Assembly (NCBI GenBank): GCA_022579005.1
Contig: MU401486.1
Span: 62,266-126,265 of the forward strand
Source: Poronia punctata
Taxonomy: Eukaryota > Ascomycota > Sordariomycetes > Xylariales > Xylariaceae
DNA: 64,000 nt
Direction: 5' to 3'
Position 1 is the first letter of the stretch. Every line of letters starts with the position of its first letter. The translations under genes and the position numbers were made by a program. Positions 18,012-54,415 of this stretch are shown piece after piece. The notes below the pieces were generated by a model. That model worked only from the letters and a program-made list of their open reading frames with translations. It was not told the origin of the DNA and did no database searches.

Positions 18012-18723
18012 TCAAGACGGCGAGTTGCAGCGATACACCGAGGCAAACAAAATCATCGTGATGGTTGTCCAGTACGCCATCACAGCTGCTAGAACTGTCT
18101 TGATGCGACCGAAAGATGACAGGCGAGTATCCATCCAATTTCGGTGCTCAATATTGGTGACGAGATGGGAATGTTTCTTCTTTACATCGAGCGACAAGCA
18201 CTCGGCTGCAATGAAAAAAAAAGATGTGGAATAATGCCTGTCAGACTTCCACCAAAGCCCACCCCGCCCGCGCGCCCGAAGGCAAGACCGCGAAGCGGGG
18301 TCGAGATCATCACCACTCTCTATACAGTCGATGGGAGCAAAGTCCCAAAGACCGCCATCCTTGCGGACAGGGCGAGAGTAAAGGGTAGCCAGATCCGAAG
18401 ATGTGGAACCCCGTTATGAGAAAATTTTCACTCTAGGGCAATGGGGATTTTCGATCATCAACCAGGGTGGGATCTGTAGCTCCTTTAGGGAACACAGAGT
18501 GGGACGAATACTATAGAAATGATTCTCTGAAGTCTGTTTGTTGAAGAAGGGAATGGTTAGTGACCTGTTGATTGCAATGCAAGAGTGAAGAAACAGATCC
18601 AAACTGCCAGAAGAATCGAGGCGAGAGTGGAAATGTTAGGGGGTGGTGGTGAACTCACATTGTCGTGTAAGGAAGAAAAGAAAAAGAGAGGGAAGAAGGT
18701 GTGGGAGGGCAGCCTTTTATAGA
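18012..18723 (-). other. Putative small minus-strand transcription unit
   Basis: On the minus strand a TATA-like box (TATAAAAG, about 18713-18722) is followed by a pyrimidine-rich leader. Next comes a textbook intron at 18604-18658 (GTGAGT donor, CCCTAAC, GGCAG acceptor). Downstream, a minus-strand frame stays open for about 130 codons and ends at 18012. Its last 45 residues contain a hydrophobic segment (TVLAAVMAYWTTITMILF) just before the stop, which would suit a small tail-anchored membrane protein. I cannot fix the start codon: one possible reading splices an ATG-led first exon near 18312 to the segment beginning ECLSLDV. No family is recognised. Confidence 0.3.
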
Positions 18724-47109: not shown

Positions 47110-48813
47110 CTATGCAAGACGTGGTTCTAAACCGGTAAACCGTCGGATGTCGTCCAACACCCATTGAATCGGTGAGGCAAACGTAACGTCTACCCCGGGG
47201 TCTAGGCTCCGTAGCTCGCTAGCGGCTGTTATGGGGGCAGTATCTGGATCGGATTTCTCGCCGGGATGTTTCTTTAGGTCTAGAGGATCTGATACGGCTC
47301 TGAGCTGCATTCCTCGCCAAGTACTCTCAGGCTTGCCATCGGTACTACCAACAACTAAGCCGACGACGTTTCCCTTCAGGTCAAAAACGCTCGAGCCCGA
47401 ATCCCCAGGCGTCGAAAAGTTTCCCTTGTCCCCGACTATCAGCATCTCCCAGGCGTGAGCAGTCTTGCCATCGGGGAAAGCATGCCGAACAACAGCTTCG
47501 ACGCCACTCTTGGTCCCATATGTTAGGCCGCTCGCGGCGCCTCTCTTGGCAACGGGCAATGGGCCGACTTCCATCGACTCGTTCCTTTGTAAACGGAGAC
47601 GGAAGTACTCGTTGAAGTTCAAAACATGATCCCACCGGCCTGGGGGCGTCTCACTGCCGACGTAGACCTCATTTTTGGGACCAGAAAACTTGGCGGAATC
47701 CAGCCTGATGAGTCCCCAATCCTTGAGGTAGCCTGGTTCTTCGGCAGAACACTCTAGTCTGGGGTGGAAAGCCAAGCAGCCAATTGTTCTTTCCTTTTTT
47801 TCCTCCAGCGACCTGACAAGCTTCGTAATTCTGTCGACATAGGCCTTGTTGATCCGGCTACGCAGGAGCGTTTGCTCATCTTCTTCTGTGGGACGCTTGT
47901 GTTTCTTCGTCTCGTCATGCTGATACCATTCCCACTCGGCCATTGCTTTCTCTATCTCAGCAATGACCTCCGATAGGTCCTCTGATATGCGCTCCAGATT
48001 TTCCAGACAGTCGGAATACGTGGTGACACTGGCCCGGACGTGGTATTGGGTGTTCTTGTCCGAGAATTGGTACATTTCCTGCACAGTTCGGTCACCGTCA
48101 ACCACATGACGGCAGGTAAGACAGTAAACAGTCGACTCGTCTTCTCCCAGCTTCAAGTGCAGACCCGCTGATCCTTCCCCTCGCCGATTTTCTTGGTACG
48201 CAATGGGGTGACCTAAAGACGGAAGTAGTGGCTCAATGGCCGCGTTTGTTCGTCCGTATTTGGGCACATCATATTCGATTTGGCTTTCGAGCTGGGCAAA
48301 GGCGTTATGATGTGTGTATCGACCTTCGCGTATCTCGACCTCGACGCCTTTAATATTGAACCGTTGGAGGATGCCACGGCATTCCAGAGCGATAGCGACG
48401 CCCTCATCCCACTGGAGGCTATCTGGTTCTACCCCAATCATCAGAACCGTAGCGACTCGGGCCCGTTCAGCTCGTTCGCCTCGTTCGCCTCGTTCGGTTC
48501 GGGCTCGTTCAGCATCAGCCTCGAGACCGATCCGGACTGGGAAGAAAAAGCACCAGTTGCATCTCTCCAGTACTCGGATGAGTTCCAAGGACAGCGGCTT
48601 TGTCCACGCCATTATTCTTTTTTGGTCCGTTAAAGGCAAATACACCTTGCGACTCTGGACGAGGGTGGCCTGCCAGCCATATTCGTGCTGGGGTGCGGTC
48701 CAGCGGTGGACGCTTGTTCTGGCGACCAGCTTGGGGTTGTGAGCAAGGCCATAGTAGTACCTGTCCCGCTCATAGTCGTCCGGTTTGTACGGCACTGGCT
48801 GTGATGGTTCCAT
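47110..48813 (-). CDS. Trypsin-like PA-clan serine protease-type protein
   Basis: A single-exon protein of 567 residues. The predicted catalytic triad is His in VYCLTCRHVVDGD, Asp in YLKDWGLIRLD and Ser in NFSTPGDSGSSVFD. The last motif is followed by NVVGLVVGS as in chymotrypsin-fold proteases. Between His and Asp lies an inserted charged, probably helical segment of about 110 residues. The first 200 residues match no domain I know; they include a repetitive Arg/Glu stretch (about residues 102-120) coded by 9-bp repeats. There is no signal peptide, so it should act inside the cell. In other fungi similar domains occur alone or joined to NLR-type receptors; a role here in self/non-self or stress response is speculation. 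The triad suggests it is active. Confidence 0.75.
   Translation of the reverse strand: MEPSQPVPYKPDDYERDRYYYGLAHNPKLVARTSVHRWTAPQHEYGWQATLVQSRKVYLPLTDQKRIMAWTKPLSLELIRVLERCNWCFFFPVRIGLEADAERARTERGERGERAERARVATVLMIGVEPDSLQWDEGVAIALECRGILQRFNIKGVEVEIREGRYTHHNAFAQLESQIEYDVPKYGRTNAAIEPLLPSLGHPIAYQENRRGEGSAGLHLKLGEDESTVYCLTCRHVVDGDRTVQEMYQFSDKNTQYHVRASVTTYSDCLENLERISEDLSEVIAEIEKAMAEWEWYQHDETKKHKRPTEEDEQTLLRSRINKAYVDRITKLVRSLEEKKERTIGCLAFHPRLECSAEEPGYLKDWGLIRLDSAKFSGPKNEVYVGSETPPGRWDHVLNFNEYFRLRLQRNESMEVGPLPVAKRGAASGLTYGTKSGVEAVVRHAFPDGKTAHAWEMLIVGDKGNFSTPGDSGSSVFDLKGNVVGLVVGSTDGKPESTWRGMQLRAVSDPLDLKKHPGEKSDPDTAPITAASELRSLDPGVDVTFASPIQWVLDDIRRFTGLEPRLA
48455..48512. repeat. 9-bp coding repeat inside the protease-like gene
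   Basis: Several near-identical 9-bp units (CTCGTTCGC/G type on the plus strand) run in frame through the gene and encode alternating Glu-Arg-Ala/Gly triplets. Copy number could vary between strains without breaking the frame. Confidence 0.75.
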
Positions 48814-49120
48814 GGTGAGATTGTTGACGTGGCAAGACTTTCTTTGCTGGAACTAGAAGTTAATGTGCGGTAATACTTCCTCGGATGCTTGGAAGAGCCT
48901 AAGTCTGAGAAGTGCTGTTGACGTTTCTGCGGCGAACAAGACAAGCAATATCGCCCTATTATACTATTATCCACTGTTAACAGTGTCACGTAGACCTGGT
49001 CTGCACACGTTAGCAGGCTTGCTGAGATCCGAACTGTGACAAACAGAGGTATCGTACTAAGTCCTCGTGTCCAGATCCTGGTTTTTGCTTTTTCCTCTTG
49101 TTAACCGTCTTGGTTATTTA

Positions 49121-49428
49121 GTTGTGATATTGAGTCTGTTTGTATTGTATGCAGAAATAGCAGAGTTTATTCCGTTGTGATGTTGAGTTTGTCTGTATTG
49201 TATGCAGAAATAGCAGAGTTTATTCCGTTGTGATGTTGAGTTTGTCTGTATTGTATGCAGAAATAGCAGAGTTTATTCCGTTGTGATGTTGAGTTTGTCT
49301 GTATTGTATGCAGAAATAGCAGAGTTTATTTCGTTGTGATGTTGAGTTTGTCTGTATTGTATGCAGAAATAGCAGAGTTTATTCTGTTGTGATATTGAGT
49401 TCATCTGTACTGTATGCAGAAATAGCAA
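49121..49428. repeat. 53-bp tandem repeat, nearly six copies
   Basis: Copies start at 49121, 49174, 49227, 49280, 49333 and 49386; the last is incomplete. Each starts GTTGTGATGTTGAGTTTGTC or a close variant. The middle copies are almost identical, the two end copies are diverged, which indicates expansion from the centre. The unit is not a multiple of three and is non-coding. Confidence 0.95.
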
Positions 49429-50339: not shown

Positions 50340-50765
50340 AGGTAACTAAGTAACCTCTGATTTGCATGTGATTATGACTTAGTTATGACCAGTTGTGTAG
50401 CACCTCCCTTACCCACTCCGTCACTTATGTTAGGCGTGCATATACCCTGCCCTTGAGGCCGTAAAGGCCTCTCTACATATAATTATCTCCCTTGCAAGTT
50501 GCCTTTCTGTGCACCTTACCTCAAAATGGAGAACACGGATGCAACGACTGTCGTATAGCTCTTGACTATTTGCAATAGTCCCACCTTCCCGAGAGCTGGA
50601 GGGCACAAGGCAAGTGGATCAATAAACCTCTTAGGACAGAGCGACAGTAGAGGCTTTATACTACCATTAGGTGGAAGTAGGCAACCGTATACCTCCGGGC
50701 AGCCCCTTCTCTGGAAATATTATCTTAGTTGTACCTTCTCAGGGTGAACAGAAGTACTGAAGGTA
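50340..50765. mobile_element. Possible LTR-like retroelement remnant
   Basis: The stretch has features that remind me of fungal Copia-type LTRs: a TGATTATGACTTAGTTATGA-like start, a TATA-like CATATAATTAT, and an AATAAA at about 50620. No paired LTR, target duplication or internal coding region is visible, so this is a weak call. Confidence 0.2.
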
Positions 50766-51118
50766 GGAACACAATATCCAAGCAAGAAGGAGCAGCAACG
50801 AACTTTAAAATGGAAATATATCTCTCTCTTTGAGCAACATTTCTATCTCCCACTCTTTCTATTCTTCTCTTCTCCATGCTTCCCGTCACGGTTCTGGTCT
50901 CGGTGCCTACGTGTACAGACCAAGTCTACACCAATATGCCCATATAAGTAGATATAGGAGACCTTTGCTCCATAGGGAAACCTTCTCTCTTTGTTCAAAA
51001 ACAACAAGTCATTACGGACCCTCTGGCAGTGTAAACTGCGATACCTCCCCTGCCGCCCAAACAAAAGACAATGGGTGTATGGCCCCCTCTATCTCTCACT
51101 CTTTCTTTTCTTCTCTCT

Positions 51119-51142
51119 ATGCTTCCGCTCAACTCACAATGA
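51119..51142 (+). promoter_or_regulatory. Short upstream reading frame overlapping the micro-exon gene start
   Basis: An eight-codon frame (MLPLNSQ, stop) ends in TGA at 51140-51142 and overlaps the proposed start ATG at 51139. It lies at the end of a long pyrimidine-rich leader. A stop overlapping the main start could allow re-initiation or dampen translation. Confidence 0.45.
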
Positions 51143-52383
51143 TGGTATGGCCCCCTCTACCCCTCTAACAATTTGTTGATTTATTAACGCATTACTACAG
51201 TACATTCAGAGGGTAAGGCCACTCTCTTTTTGGACAGAACTGGATATGGTGTGGACATAACGATTAATAAATCATTAGAAATATAAAGCGGTAAGTGCAG
51301 CAAGGACATTTCTGCCTGTTTTCAAACCCGATCTGTAGTGAAACTGCCTGACATTGTGGTTAGCACAGAGTGGTGTCGGTGAGTCTAGTTCTAAGTCTTT
51401 GTCCTCTATACCTCAGCGATTTTGATTGGCAGTTTAATAACCACAGCAATTATAGACTCCTACCCTACCGGTCCCACAGGAACAACCACCGGCAAACCCA
51501 CCGGCAAACCCCCGGGTGAGTAGACGGCTGAATTGAAAATGATATGCGTGCACTAACAAGCCGTGCGATATGTAGCCAGCTCCAAATACGAAGGAGGTAC
51601 GATCCAATTACGTGCCAGGCGAACAAAGAGCATACTAACATACAGATCAGTTTGCCCAGGAAAAGCCTGAAGTGAGTATATATCCACAAGGAACACTTAT
51701 AATTTGAGCTAATTGTATCTCAACAGGAGGCCTCGCAGCGCCTGAAGGTACGTCATCTAGCCCCTGGGCAGGTAGAAGACACGAAACTCGCTGGATACGC
51801 AAGCTTACCCTTTTACAGATAGCCCTCAAAACAAAGAGGGTAAGTCTCTTACCTCGCTCTGGGGAGTAGTGTCTGCTCTCTGACCATGGGTTGATTGACT
51901 ATTGGTTACCAGGAAGCTGAAATGACCATCAATGTAAGATCATGGACTCTGATAACTCAAGGGGTTACATTGCTCATTACAAATAGCGAGAGAAGGAGAA
52001 GGTTTTGGTTAGTAGAACCTCTTGTCAACTTTTGCCGAAGGCGCTAATTACGTTATAGCTCTGGAGAACCCGAGTGACTGTGCGTACCATTCTGCCTTGC
52101 TTGTCAAGACCAATAGTTGACCTAGCATAACAGGAGTGGGAAGCACTGCCCGTAAGTTCAAAGGTGCCTTTTTCATGATGACGAGTAACTAACGTACTAC
52201 ATTATAGACAATAGATGAAGAATTCGAGGTTAGTAAACAGGTCACAGAAAGGGTATAGCAGGTTCTTGACTAACAAACGCAGGCAATTCTTCAGCCAAAA
52301 GAAGTAAGCTAACTATATCGAAATAACCTTGTTAGCTATGTGCTCTCTAACATATAAACTACTAGACCAATAGAGAAGAGTAA
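51139..52383 (+). CDS. Micro-exon gene: 16 tiny exons, mostly 21 nt, encoding heptad repeats
   Basis: Proposed exons: 51139-51144, 51201-51212, 51279-51290, 51364-51378, 51456-51515, 51576-51596, 51651-51671, 51727-51747, 51819-51839, 51913-51933, 51987-52007, 52059-52079, 52134-52151, 52208-52228, 52283-52303 and 52366-52383 (stop TAA). The coding length is 330 nt, or 109 residues. Nine exons are exactly 21 nt, two are 18, and all are multiples of three. The 15 introns are 51-77 bp, all phase 0, with GTRNGT-like donors and CTAAC/CTAAT/TTGAC branch sites. The N-terminal part is basic, then Pro-rich (exon 5), then a charged helical region: exons 8-15 encode heptads such as EASQRLK, REKEKVL and TIDEEFE. 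There is no signal peptide or known domain. Exons 6-16 are strongly supported by phase and splice signals together; exons 1-5, and the acceptor of exon 5 (51455 or 51479), are less sure. Function is unknown. Confidence 0.75.
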
Positions 52384-52979
52384 ATTTCCCGGGGGTGGGC
52401 GAGGGGCGTTGGTCGTCGCTTAAGGGGATTGAAGGGGATCGAAGGGGATTGAAGGGGATCGAAGGGGATTGAAGGGGATTGAAGGGGATTGCAACGGCTA
52501 CGAAGAACTTGGACCTAGGTTAGGTCCCTAGTATGAAGTGCGTTACCAAGGTTGCCAAAACTGCAAATAGCTTCAAGATCTTCAGGCAAGGGTAGGTAGG
52601 CTGTGCTAGTAGATACGCAGACATACTATCTCAGCTGTTGCCTCCTGTCTTGGCACACACCCTACAGCAGATGCAGCACACCTTTTTCCACTCCGGTATT
52701 TATAATTAAAGCTATGATTGCTTAGCCCAATGAAGTGTAGCTTGTGGGCGAGGATGATTGTGGTCGGACGTAACTGTTGCGTGATTGTTCCGGTAAAGAG
52801 GCTAAGGAGACATATACACGTCGGGCAGGATTTTGGAAACTAGTCAGCTAGGAGACCTGCCCCGTCTGTTAACAAGGGCTCTTTCTTGATATAAAAGGGA
52901 GGTTTATCTGTGTTTGTACTCATAAAGTCATCTTCAAAGAAAAGGAAAAAAAAAAGAAGTGGTTTCTCTTCATCCTCTC
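52384..52979. other. Intergenic with 10-bp repeat
   Basis: The spacer between the micro-exon gene and the converging oxidoreductase holds the 10-bp array and no gene. Confidence 0.6.
52421..52490. repeat. 10-bp tandem repeat
   Basis: Seven units of GAAGGGGATT, with ATC instead of ATT in two of them, directly 3' of the micro-exon gene (38 bases after its stop). The array probably lies in its 3' untranslated region. Confidence 0.9.
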
Positions 52980-54219
52980 TCAACGATGCTTAACAACGAT
53001 CTTGCCCCCAATCGTGGGAGTCGAGCAGGCAATGAGCATCGATAATGTCTTCGTACTCGAAGACCTTGGCAGGGTCCGCGTCCCAGCAGCCGGCCTCGAT
53101 CTTGCGCACAATATCGCGCAAGGGCACGTCGTCGAGTGGAAAGTCGGGCGTGCCAAGCACTTTGCTATGGAACAGACTGAAATGCACGCCCGACTCCATC
53201 TGCACCATCGGGGTTAAACTCGTGCAAGGGCTCGAGTCCACCCAGCCATCCAGCCTGCAGCATACGACCGCCGGGCCGCGTCAGAGCGATGGACTCGAGA
53301 AGTACGCTGTTACCGATTAGATTCAACGTCTTGTCAAACTTCATCCTCTCCTTGCGTCCGTCTCCGTGACTGCCATGCTCTTGTTCCTGCTCGATTTTGT
53401 CCTCCTCATCCAAGAGGCTCGCTTGCTCTCTAACAACCCTGACGGCTCCCATGCTTCGCAACACATCAAACCGCTCCTCGCGACGCGTCGTGGCAGTGAC
53501 GATAGCCCCGACATCCACGGCCAGATGCAAAGCCGCTTGACCAAGGGTACTCGTCGCGCCGCGGATCAACAACGTCTCTCCCTTCCGGAGATCAAGGACG
53601 GTGAATAGACATGACCAGGCAGTGCAATATGTCTCTGGCAGCGCGGCTAGTTGCGCCCAGGATAATTTCGTCTCGGGCTCGTCCTCGAGCGATATCACGT
53701 TTGTAGCAGGGACTGCGACGTACTCGCCATAACTTCCCGGTCGCGTACGGCCCATTCCGCCCATCACGGCCGCTACTTTGGTGCCTGGGCGGAATTCATG
53801 ATTCCGCGAAGATGATGGTGAGGGATGATGATGATATGGATGTGGATGTGGGTATGCTGATGATGATACTATGGTTCCTACGCATTCGAGACCTGTTATG
53901 GGGTTCCATTCGTCCCATTCGCCTTTTCGCATGTCTAATTTTTTAGGGGTTTTTTTTTTGGAAACGTTAGTTTGTCAGTCTTGCACCAATGATTGCGCTT
54001 CAAAGAAACGGGCAAAAGGGGTAAGGAGAAGAAAACGGGCAAATTTTTTTTTTTTAGAAAATGAAATAACTAACGCATTTCCGCATAATTAACCCCGAAA
54101 GCATGAACCCGAATCAATACCTCGCCCGGACCGGGTACGGGTCTCGGAACGTCGCGGTATTCGAGGACTTCCGGCCCGCCAAAGGTCGGGATGACGATTG
54201 CGCGCATTGACTCGGACAT
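52980..54219 (-). pseudogene. MDR-superfamily zinc-independent quinone/alcohol oxidoreductase, two frameshifts
   Basis: The family moves hydride from NAD(P)H to quinones or enones. The first exon (54219-54075) starts MSESMRAIVIPTFGGPEVLE and joins, after the intron 53935-54074, to HMRKGEWDEWNPITGLECVG. The Rossmann loop is degenerate (LLIRGATSTLGQAALHLA). The frame breaks near 53208, where HEFNP should continue as MVQMESGVHFSLF but one extra base intervenes. It breaks again near 53015, where LLDSHD should continue as a GGKIVVK end. Both breaks are single-base insertions. A His/Pro/Ser-rich insert coded by ATG/GAT microsatellite-like repeats lies near 53815-53870. No catalytic zinc ligands are evident. 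This may be a recent pseudogene or two base-calling errors; the assembly gap 200 bases away makes error plausible. Confidence 0.7.

Positions 54220-54314: not shown

Positions 54315-54415
<101 letters not shown>

Follow-up and report, generated by a model that had tools for sequence, protein, structure and literature searches.

Micro-exon genes in animals and fungi

Ascomycete genes normally contain few introns. Arrays of very short exons have previously been tied to fast-evolving secreted proteins in worms and aphids. The micro-exon genes (MEGs) of Schistosoma contain numerous very short exons in succession, the lengths of most being multiples of three; in the available text of the source, they are described as having few conserved motifs, an N-terminal signal peptide, introns ranging from 100 to almost 5000 bp and exons that mostly measure 15 bp (PMC10526429). 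Aphid bicycle genes have about 17 exons on average, many of them tiny and internal and nearly all in one phase, and encode proteins with poor sequence similarity, according to the accessible part of that report (PMC9168663). A further source, also available in part, gives phase 2 for the internal exons and states that the proteins are injected into plants (PMC13041983).

Several systems have been described in filamentous ascomycetes, here as given in the accessible portions of the papers. In Tuber melanosporum, the NACHT-ankyrin genes, which are NLR genes, contain dozens of frame-neutral mini-exons (3 bp) (PMC9815663, PMC4986451). Xlr2 of Trichoderma virens has a single micro-exon; functional microexons were called previously undescribed in filamentous fungi in that report (PMC11121469). 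CYP621A of Fusarium has a one-nucleotide exon (PMC12940212). In Xylariales, sister stwintrons are proliferating introns which are mutually alike and are found in unrelated genes (PMC12403724). No fungal gene with a constant 21-nt exon was found in the available text of the open-licence literature on fungal micro-exon genes, truffle mini-exon genes and Poronia.

Gene model and exon structure

Poronia punctata is a dung-inhabiting member of the Xylariaceae; its genome paper is said to be that of Franco et al. 2022. Its assembly GCA_022579005.1 is of strain CBS 180.79 (PMC12369201), probably the strain studied here. A 64,000-nucleotide stretch of one contig of this species was analysed (the window; all positions refer to it). 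The splice model reconstructed for 51139-52383 on the plus strand has 16 exons and 15 introns. Exon lengths are, in order, 6, 12, 12, 15 and 60 nt, seven exons of 21 nt, and 18, 21, 21 and 18 nt. The introns are 51-77 nt long and all 15 are in phase 0, between codons; exons have a G+C content of 50% and introns of 42%. The joined coding sequence is 330 nt including the stop and encodes a protein of 109 residues. Each of the 14 internal exons consists of whole codons; ten are 18-21 nt and nine of these are exactly 21 nt.

The 5' part of the gene consists of exon 1 (MM; 51139-51144, 6 nt), exon 2 (YIQR; 51201-51212, 12 nt), exon 3 (KYKA; 51279-51290, 12 nt) and exon 4 (HRVVS; 51364-51378, 15 nt). 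Exon 5 (51456-51515, 60 nt) encodes a proline-rich linker and includes a 12-bp tandem repeat at 51486-51515. These 5' exons are less certain than those of the array which follows.

The array lies at 51576-52383 and contains eleven segments in one open frame; nine have 21 nt and the other two 18 nt. It begins with exons 6 (PAPNTKE; 51576-51596), 7 (FAQEKPE; 51651-51671), 8 (EASQRLK; 51727-51747), 9 (IALKTKR; 51819-51839), 10 (EAEMTIN; 51913-51933), 11 (REKEKVL; 51987-52007) and 12 (LWRTRVT; 52059-52079), each of 21 nt. Exon 13 (EWEALP; 52134-52151) has 18 nt, exons 14 (TIDEEFE; 52208-52228) and 15 (AILQPKE; 52283-52303) have 21 nt, and exon 16 (TNREE and stop; 52366-52383) has 18 nt. A preliminary description of the locus had given all eleven segments an acceptor, a donor and whole codons; this stands for ten of them, while exon 16 has an acceptor but ends in the stop and hence has no donor. 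Its nine segments of exactly 21 nt recur in the 16-exon model, and its exon count, exon lengths, phase and 109-residue product were reproduced exactly and match a public prediction.

That prediction is the GenBank hypothetical protein GGS20DRAFT_584176 [Poronia punctata], to which the spliced 109-residue product is identical. The gene model is thus an earlier, unnamed GenBank prediction; no description of it was found in the accessible parts of the literature searched.

Comparison with known systems

The Poronia gene shares with the MEGs an array of short exons in multiples of three (all 14 internal exons). It differs from them in its introns of 51-77 nt, its exon length of 21 nt and, judged by hydropathy alone and on the less certain 5' exons, the lack of a hydrophobic window among the model's 30 N-terminal residues. 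Unlike those of bicycle genes, its exons are all in phase 0, and there is no signal-peptide-like segment. Bicycle proteins are themselves very divergent; the five-residue-word search described below returned only the identical Poronia record.

Like the NACHT-ankyrin genes of Tuber, the gene is from an ascomycete and has many frame-neutral mini-exons; unlike them, it encodes a 109-residue orphan with no Pfam domain up to E 10 and has 21-nt exons. The primary paper on the truffle genes is reportedly that of Iotti et al. 2012. Xlr2 and CYP621A resemble the Poronia gene in having very short spliced exons in filamentous ascomycetes, but each has one micro-exon in an otherwise ordinary gene, in contrast to the array seen here. 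As with sister stwintrons, there are many introns in a fungus of the order Xylariales; unlike sister stwintrons, the Poronia introns are mutually dissimilar and no copy was found outside the gene.

By analogy, the Poronia gene may resemble the MEGs, bicycle genes and truffle mini-exon genes in the way it works. It is filed under none of them because it lacks a signal-peptide-like segment and has short introns, because its exons are in phase 0, and because it has no NACHT or ankyrin domain. Since fungi have micro-exons elsewhere, the novelty lies in the constant 21-nt array and not in the micro-exon itself.

Splice signals

Acceptors (with branch point) and donors were scored by a generic fungal model drawn from general knowledge, and micro-exons of 9-39 nt separated by introns of 44-100 nt were joined into chains whose frame had to be free of stops. 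Neither constancy of exon length nor phase was imposed; chains were reported from a score of 6, and exons 1 and 5 fall outside the limits on exon size. The array scores 22.6 with 11 chained micro-exons. Exons 2-4 give a second chain (7.7), a partial match to the model. Third-order Markov simulation, scanned on both strands, yielded 142 chains at or above the threshold in 43.2 Mb: 116 contained one exon and 26 contained two, and the highest score was 9.6, for a chain of two. The best chain in the rest of the window scores 11.6 with two micro-exons. In 196 kb of the same contig the best of the six chains listed scores 9.7, also with two, and 40 kb of a further contig have no chain at threshold 6. 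The preliminary description had held chance agreement of length, phase and splice signals to be very unlikely; the simulation agrees with this, and together with codon usage it excludes a chance pattern.

The unconstrained scan prefers 26, 9 and 14 nt at exons 7, 15 and 16, respectively. This is explained by nearby AGs (alternative acceptors at exons 7 and 15) or, at the last exon, a weak GTAAAT donor, which score slightly higher. Once the acceptors of the model are fixed, the donor choice is unique in nine of the ten array exons; the constant 21 nt follows from this, from the open frame and from the public model. The weak sites in the gene are two donors, that of exon 1 (GTATGG, 1.0 bits) and that of exon 6 (1.5 bits), together with the branch point in the intron preceding exon 11 (1.6 bits).

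Coding signal

Codon usage was scored in bits per codon against out-of-frame triplets of ten long open frames in the window. The in-frame score of the array is 0.365, and its two other frames give -0.136 and -0.006; none of 3000 base shuffles reached the in-frame value (stops were skipped in scoring). For the whole coding sequence the values are 0.248 in frame (p 0.0003 against base shuffles) and -0.115 and 0.014 in the other frames. The introns of the gene score 0.021, 0.123 and -0.010 on the same measure. Pieces of 207 nt taken from the long frames, which also trained the score, have a mean of 0.238 and a standard deviation of 0.119. An intergenic background gave an agreeing result. Gene-like codon usage is confined to the predicted frame.

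Predicted protein

AlphaFold2, run on the single sequence, places a helix at residues 48-88, with block mean pLDDT of 95-98 over residues 51-80, and a short helix at 92-100. The N-terminal part is of low confidence and has no secondary structure; for the whole model, with one sequence as input, mean pLDDT is 74 and pTM is 0.37. The proline-rich linker spans exon 5 and the start of the array. From the N-terminus, which is basic, the predicted layout continues with this linker, a single long charged helix and a second, short one. The protein contains no cysteine and no glycine.

In the first 30 residues the highest 15-residue Kyte-Doolittle mean is -0.11, so that a hydrophobic N-terminal segment is absent. 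For this reason we infer that the protein stays inside the cell. As to its role, our best guess is a helical protein that evolves fast and acts within the cell as a partner or adaptor.

An alignment of the residues exon by exon shows hydrophobicity to be highest at positions 2 and 6, a heptad-like spacing of 4 and 3. This register was noticed before it was tested; a common heptad register gave p 0.011 for exons 6-15, 0.015 for exons 7-15 and 0.125 for the helix exons 8-13. A column-variance test of the exon register was not significant (p 0.06 to 0.48), nor was the hydrophobic moment of the helix (p 0.75). Support for a coiled-coil heptad is weak. Because the register and moment tests are weak, we refrain from calling the structure a coiled coil and describe each exon as two turns of helix.

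Relatives and other copies

Protein searches with 103 and 74 residues returned only the identical Poronia record (one of four candidates at E <= 1; one of one at E <= 10). The search requires shared five-residue words. A neighbouring gene at 47110-48813 gave 28 rows including itself in the same protein database (8000 candidates scored); since these rows include several from Xylaria and Hypoxylon and one each from Nemania and Biscogniauxia, the Xylariales are represented there. No Pfam family was found for the 109-residue protein up to E 10, and there was no match in NCBIfam or among PDB sequences. The preliminary description had recognised no similar protein and had proposed a search with the joined product; within the searches made, its view holds apart from the GGS20DRAFT_584176 record.

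At the DNA level the gene is single copy in the genome (one match from one candidate, itself). The protein compared with the genome matched its own exon 5 and gave four weak matches (E 0.18 to 8.9), around which the splice-chain scan reported nothing. The same scan gave no second array in the window, a further 236 kb and short loci, and there was no second family member in the parts of the genome examined.

We think that the protein is lineage-restricted, as far as these comparisons go. "Orphan" here means that no annotated relative was found, because the search depends on five-residue words and because annotation may miss or misbuild genes of this kind. The structure also raises the possibility that fungal annotations lack homologs, such short exons being discarded by gene finders.

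Origin of the array and alternative explanations

We take the locus to be a real protein-coding gene, for which the gene model with its 15 phase-0 introns, the coding signal and the array of splice signals are established. We consider it probable that its 109-residue product is intracellular and helical, that the array grew by unit duplication, and that the protein is fast-evolving. The pre-mRNA would lose its 15 short phase-0 introns one by one, each recognised by intron definition. Each 21-nt exon would add seven residues, or about two helical turns. As every internal exon is in phase 0 and contains only complete codons, the frame survives when an exon is lost, gained or skipped; a change of one cassette would alter the helix by about two turns, making variation in length cheap in evolution and possibly also per cell. 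By analogy with other micro-exon gene families, gain, loss or skipping of cassettes could make the protein fast-evolving. The array itself would have grown as a unit of about 75 bp, made up of a 21-nt exon and an intron of about 54 nt, was duplicated in tandem.

The geometry of the array is consistent with such growth. Starts of adjacent array exons are separated by 75, 76, 92, 94, 74, 72, 75, 74, 75 and 83 bp. Tandem duplication of an exon-intron unit would be expected to leave such a period, of about 75 bp, along with exons that do not vary in length or phase. Codon shuffles give an identity among the array exons of 0.283, and the observed value is 0.300 (p 0.13). For the 15 introns, mean similarity is 13.6 with a null of 13.07 +/- 0.40 (1.3 sd above the null), and for the exon-intron units of the array it is 15.64 with a null of 15.38 +/- 0.65. 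Since exon, intron and unit similarity are all near the null, a duplication origin is not shown by the sequence. One 68-bp tandem duplication survives at 51068-51165 on the plus strand, including exon 1 and its donor; 51068-51097 and 51136-51165 are identical at 25 of 30 positions, a value reached in none of 400 simulations of local composition (best 22/30). An origin by tandem duplication is probably correct, given the geometry and this one surviving duplication.

The main rival to unit duplication is repeated insertion of introns, of an introner- or stwintron-like kind, into a continuous helical coding sequence; the 21-nt spacing would then go back to an older coding repeat of 21 nt or to a minimum size for exons. 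Fungi of the order Xylariales are known to spread introns, according to the available text of two reports (PMC12403724, PMC8469720), and the units of the array have no residual similarity, as insertion would allow. However, the introns of this gene have no other copy in the genome (one match from one candidate, itself) and the 15 are not alike. In addition, the exon ends adjoining them vary, so no common target motif is seen, and a size limit alone would not yield exactly 21 nt nine times. We regard this origin as unlikely. Compatible with the favoured reading of a coding gene grown by unit duplication is a combinatorial use of the array, in which frame-neutral cassettes are skipped alternatively to give many protein variants. 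In its favour is the phase-0, whole-codon structure of all 14 internal exons, and schistosome MEGs (PMC10526429) and truffle NACHT-ankyrin genes (PMC9815663) provide precedents in the portions of those sources available. Against this, the sole public record found is of one isoform, and 12 of the 14 internal-exon donors score at least 2.5 bits (exon 6 scores 1.5), so that most sites look constitutive; such use is possible, though we doubt it.

The remaining explanations dispense with a protein-coding gene. Gene predictors do build many-exon models in intergenic DNA, and the model could be a false one assembled from chance splice signals; with a score of 22.6 against at most 9.6 in the 43.2 Mb simulated, and with the codon usage observed, this is very improbable. 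A spliced non-coding RNA, such as a snoRNA host gene with short exons, is more improbable still. Host genes of this type typically have many introns and short exons, as here, but a search of 50700-52600 against Rfam gave nothing up to E 1, the codon usage is that of coding sequence in a single frame, and at 51-77 nt the introns are short for hosting box C/D RNAs.

Beyond the single gene, it is possible, though in our view less likely than not, that fungi independently evolved a class of micro-exon genes in which a fixed 21-nt phase-0 exon corresponds to a seven-residue helix module, and that this gene is the first member described. If this is true, helix length could be changed by unit duplication or exon skipping. 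An ascomycete gene of 109 codons that has 15 phase-0 introns and a 21-nt exon of fixed length would make it possible to test how micro-exon arrays arise. It would also allow tests of how an intron-definition spliceosome handles consecutive exons of 6-21 nt, and of whether exon size follows protein structure.

Flanking sequence and neighbourhood

A pyrimidine-rich tract at 51088-51138 on the plus strand, just 5' of the ATG, is probably the core promoter. It is partly duplicated, with a second copy at 50842-50888 (27 of 29 positions identical). On the 3' side, a 10-bp minisatellite (AAGGGGATTG x7; 52422-52491, plus strand) begins 39 nt beyond the stop. Just past the stop, 52388-52411 is 71% complementary over 24 nt to the 3' end of exon 5 (51493-51516); in DNA rich in G+C such a match could arise by chance.

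A dispersed repeat of about 160 bp occupies 50885-51043 and ends about 100 bp 5' of the ATG of the micro-exon gene. It has at least 39 other copies in the genome, 79-88% identical (40 of 73 candidates scored, including the copy beside the gene). The repeat looks like a short inverted-repeat (MITE-like) element, since all seven copies aligned begin with TGTCAC and five of the seven end with GTGACA. A link between this repeat and micro-exon arrays was rejected: seven other copies, of the 39 listed, give no chain, and the splice-chain scan returned two single micro-exon hits (6.4 and 6.8) in the same seven.

The neighbouring gene at 47110-48813 is a 567-aa open frame on the minus strand, with a weak match to the trypsin-like peptidase family Trypsin_2 (23.7 bits, below the Pfam cut-off of 27.6); 27 relatives of its product are listed, with 36-57% identity, including Xylaria, Hypoxylon and Diaporthe. 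Between it and the micro-exon gene lies a tandem array of a 53-bp unit (49114-49427, 5.9 copies, 95% matches). On the other side, an open frame for a zinc-binding dehydrogenase or quinone oxidoreductase is found at 53165-53932 on the minus strand (Pfam ADH_zinc_N, E 1.9e-10), and a perfect run of the tetranucleotide TTGA at 54316-54414 (24.8 copies). Elsewhere in the window, 18236-18541 on the minus strand carries a U3 snoRNA gene (Rfam RF01846, 175.5 bits).
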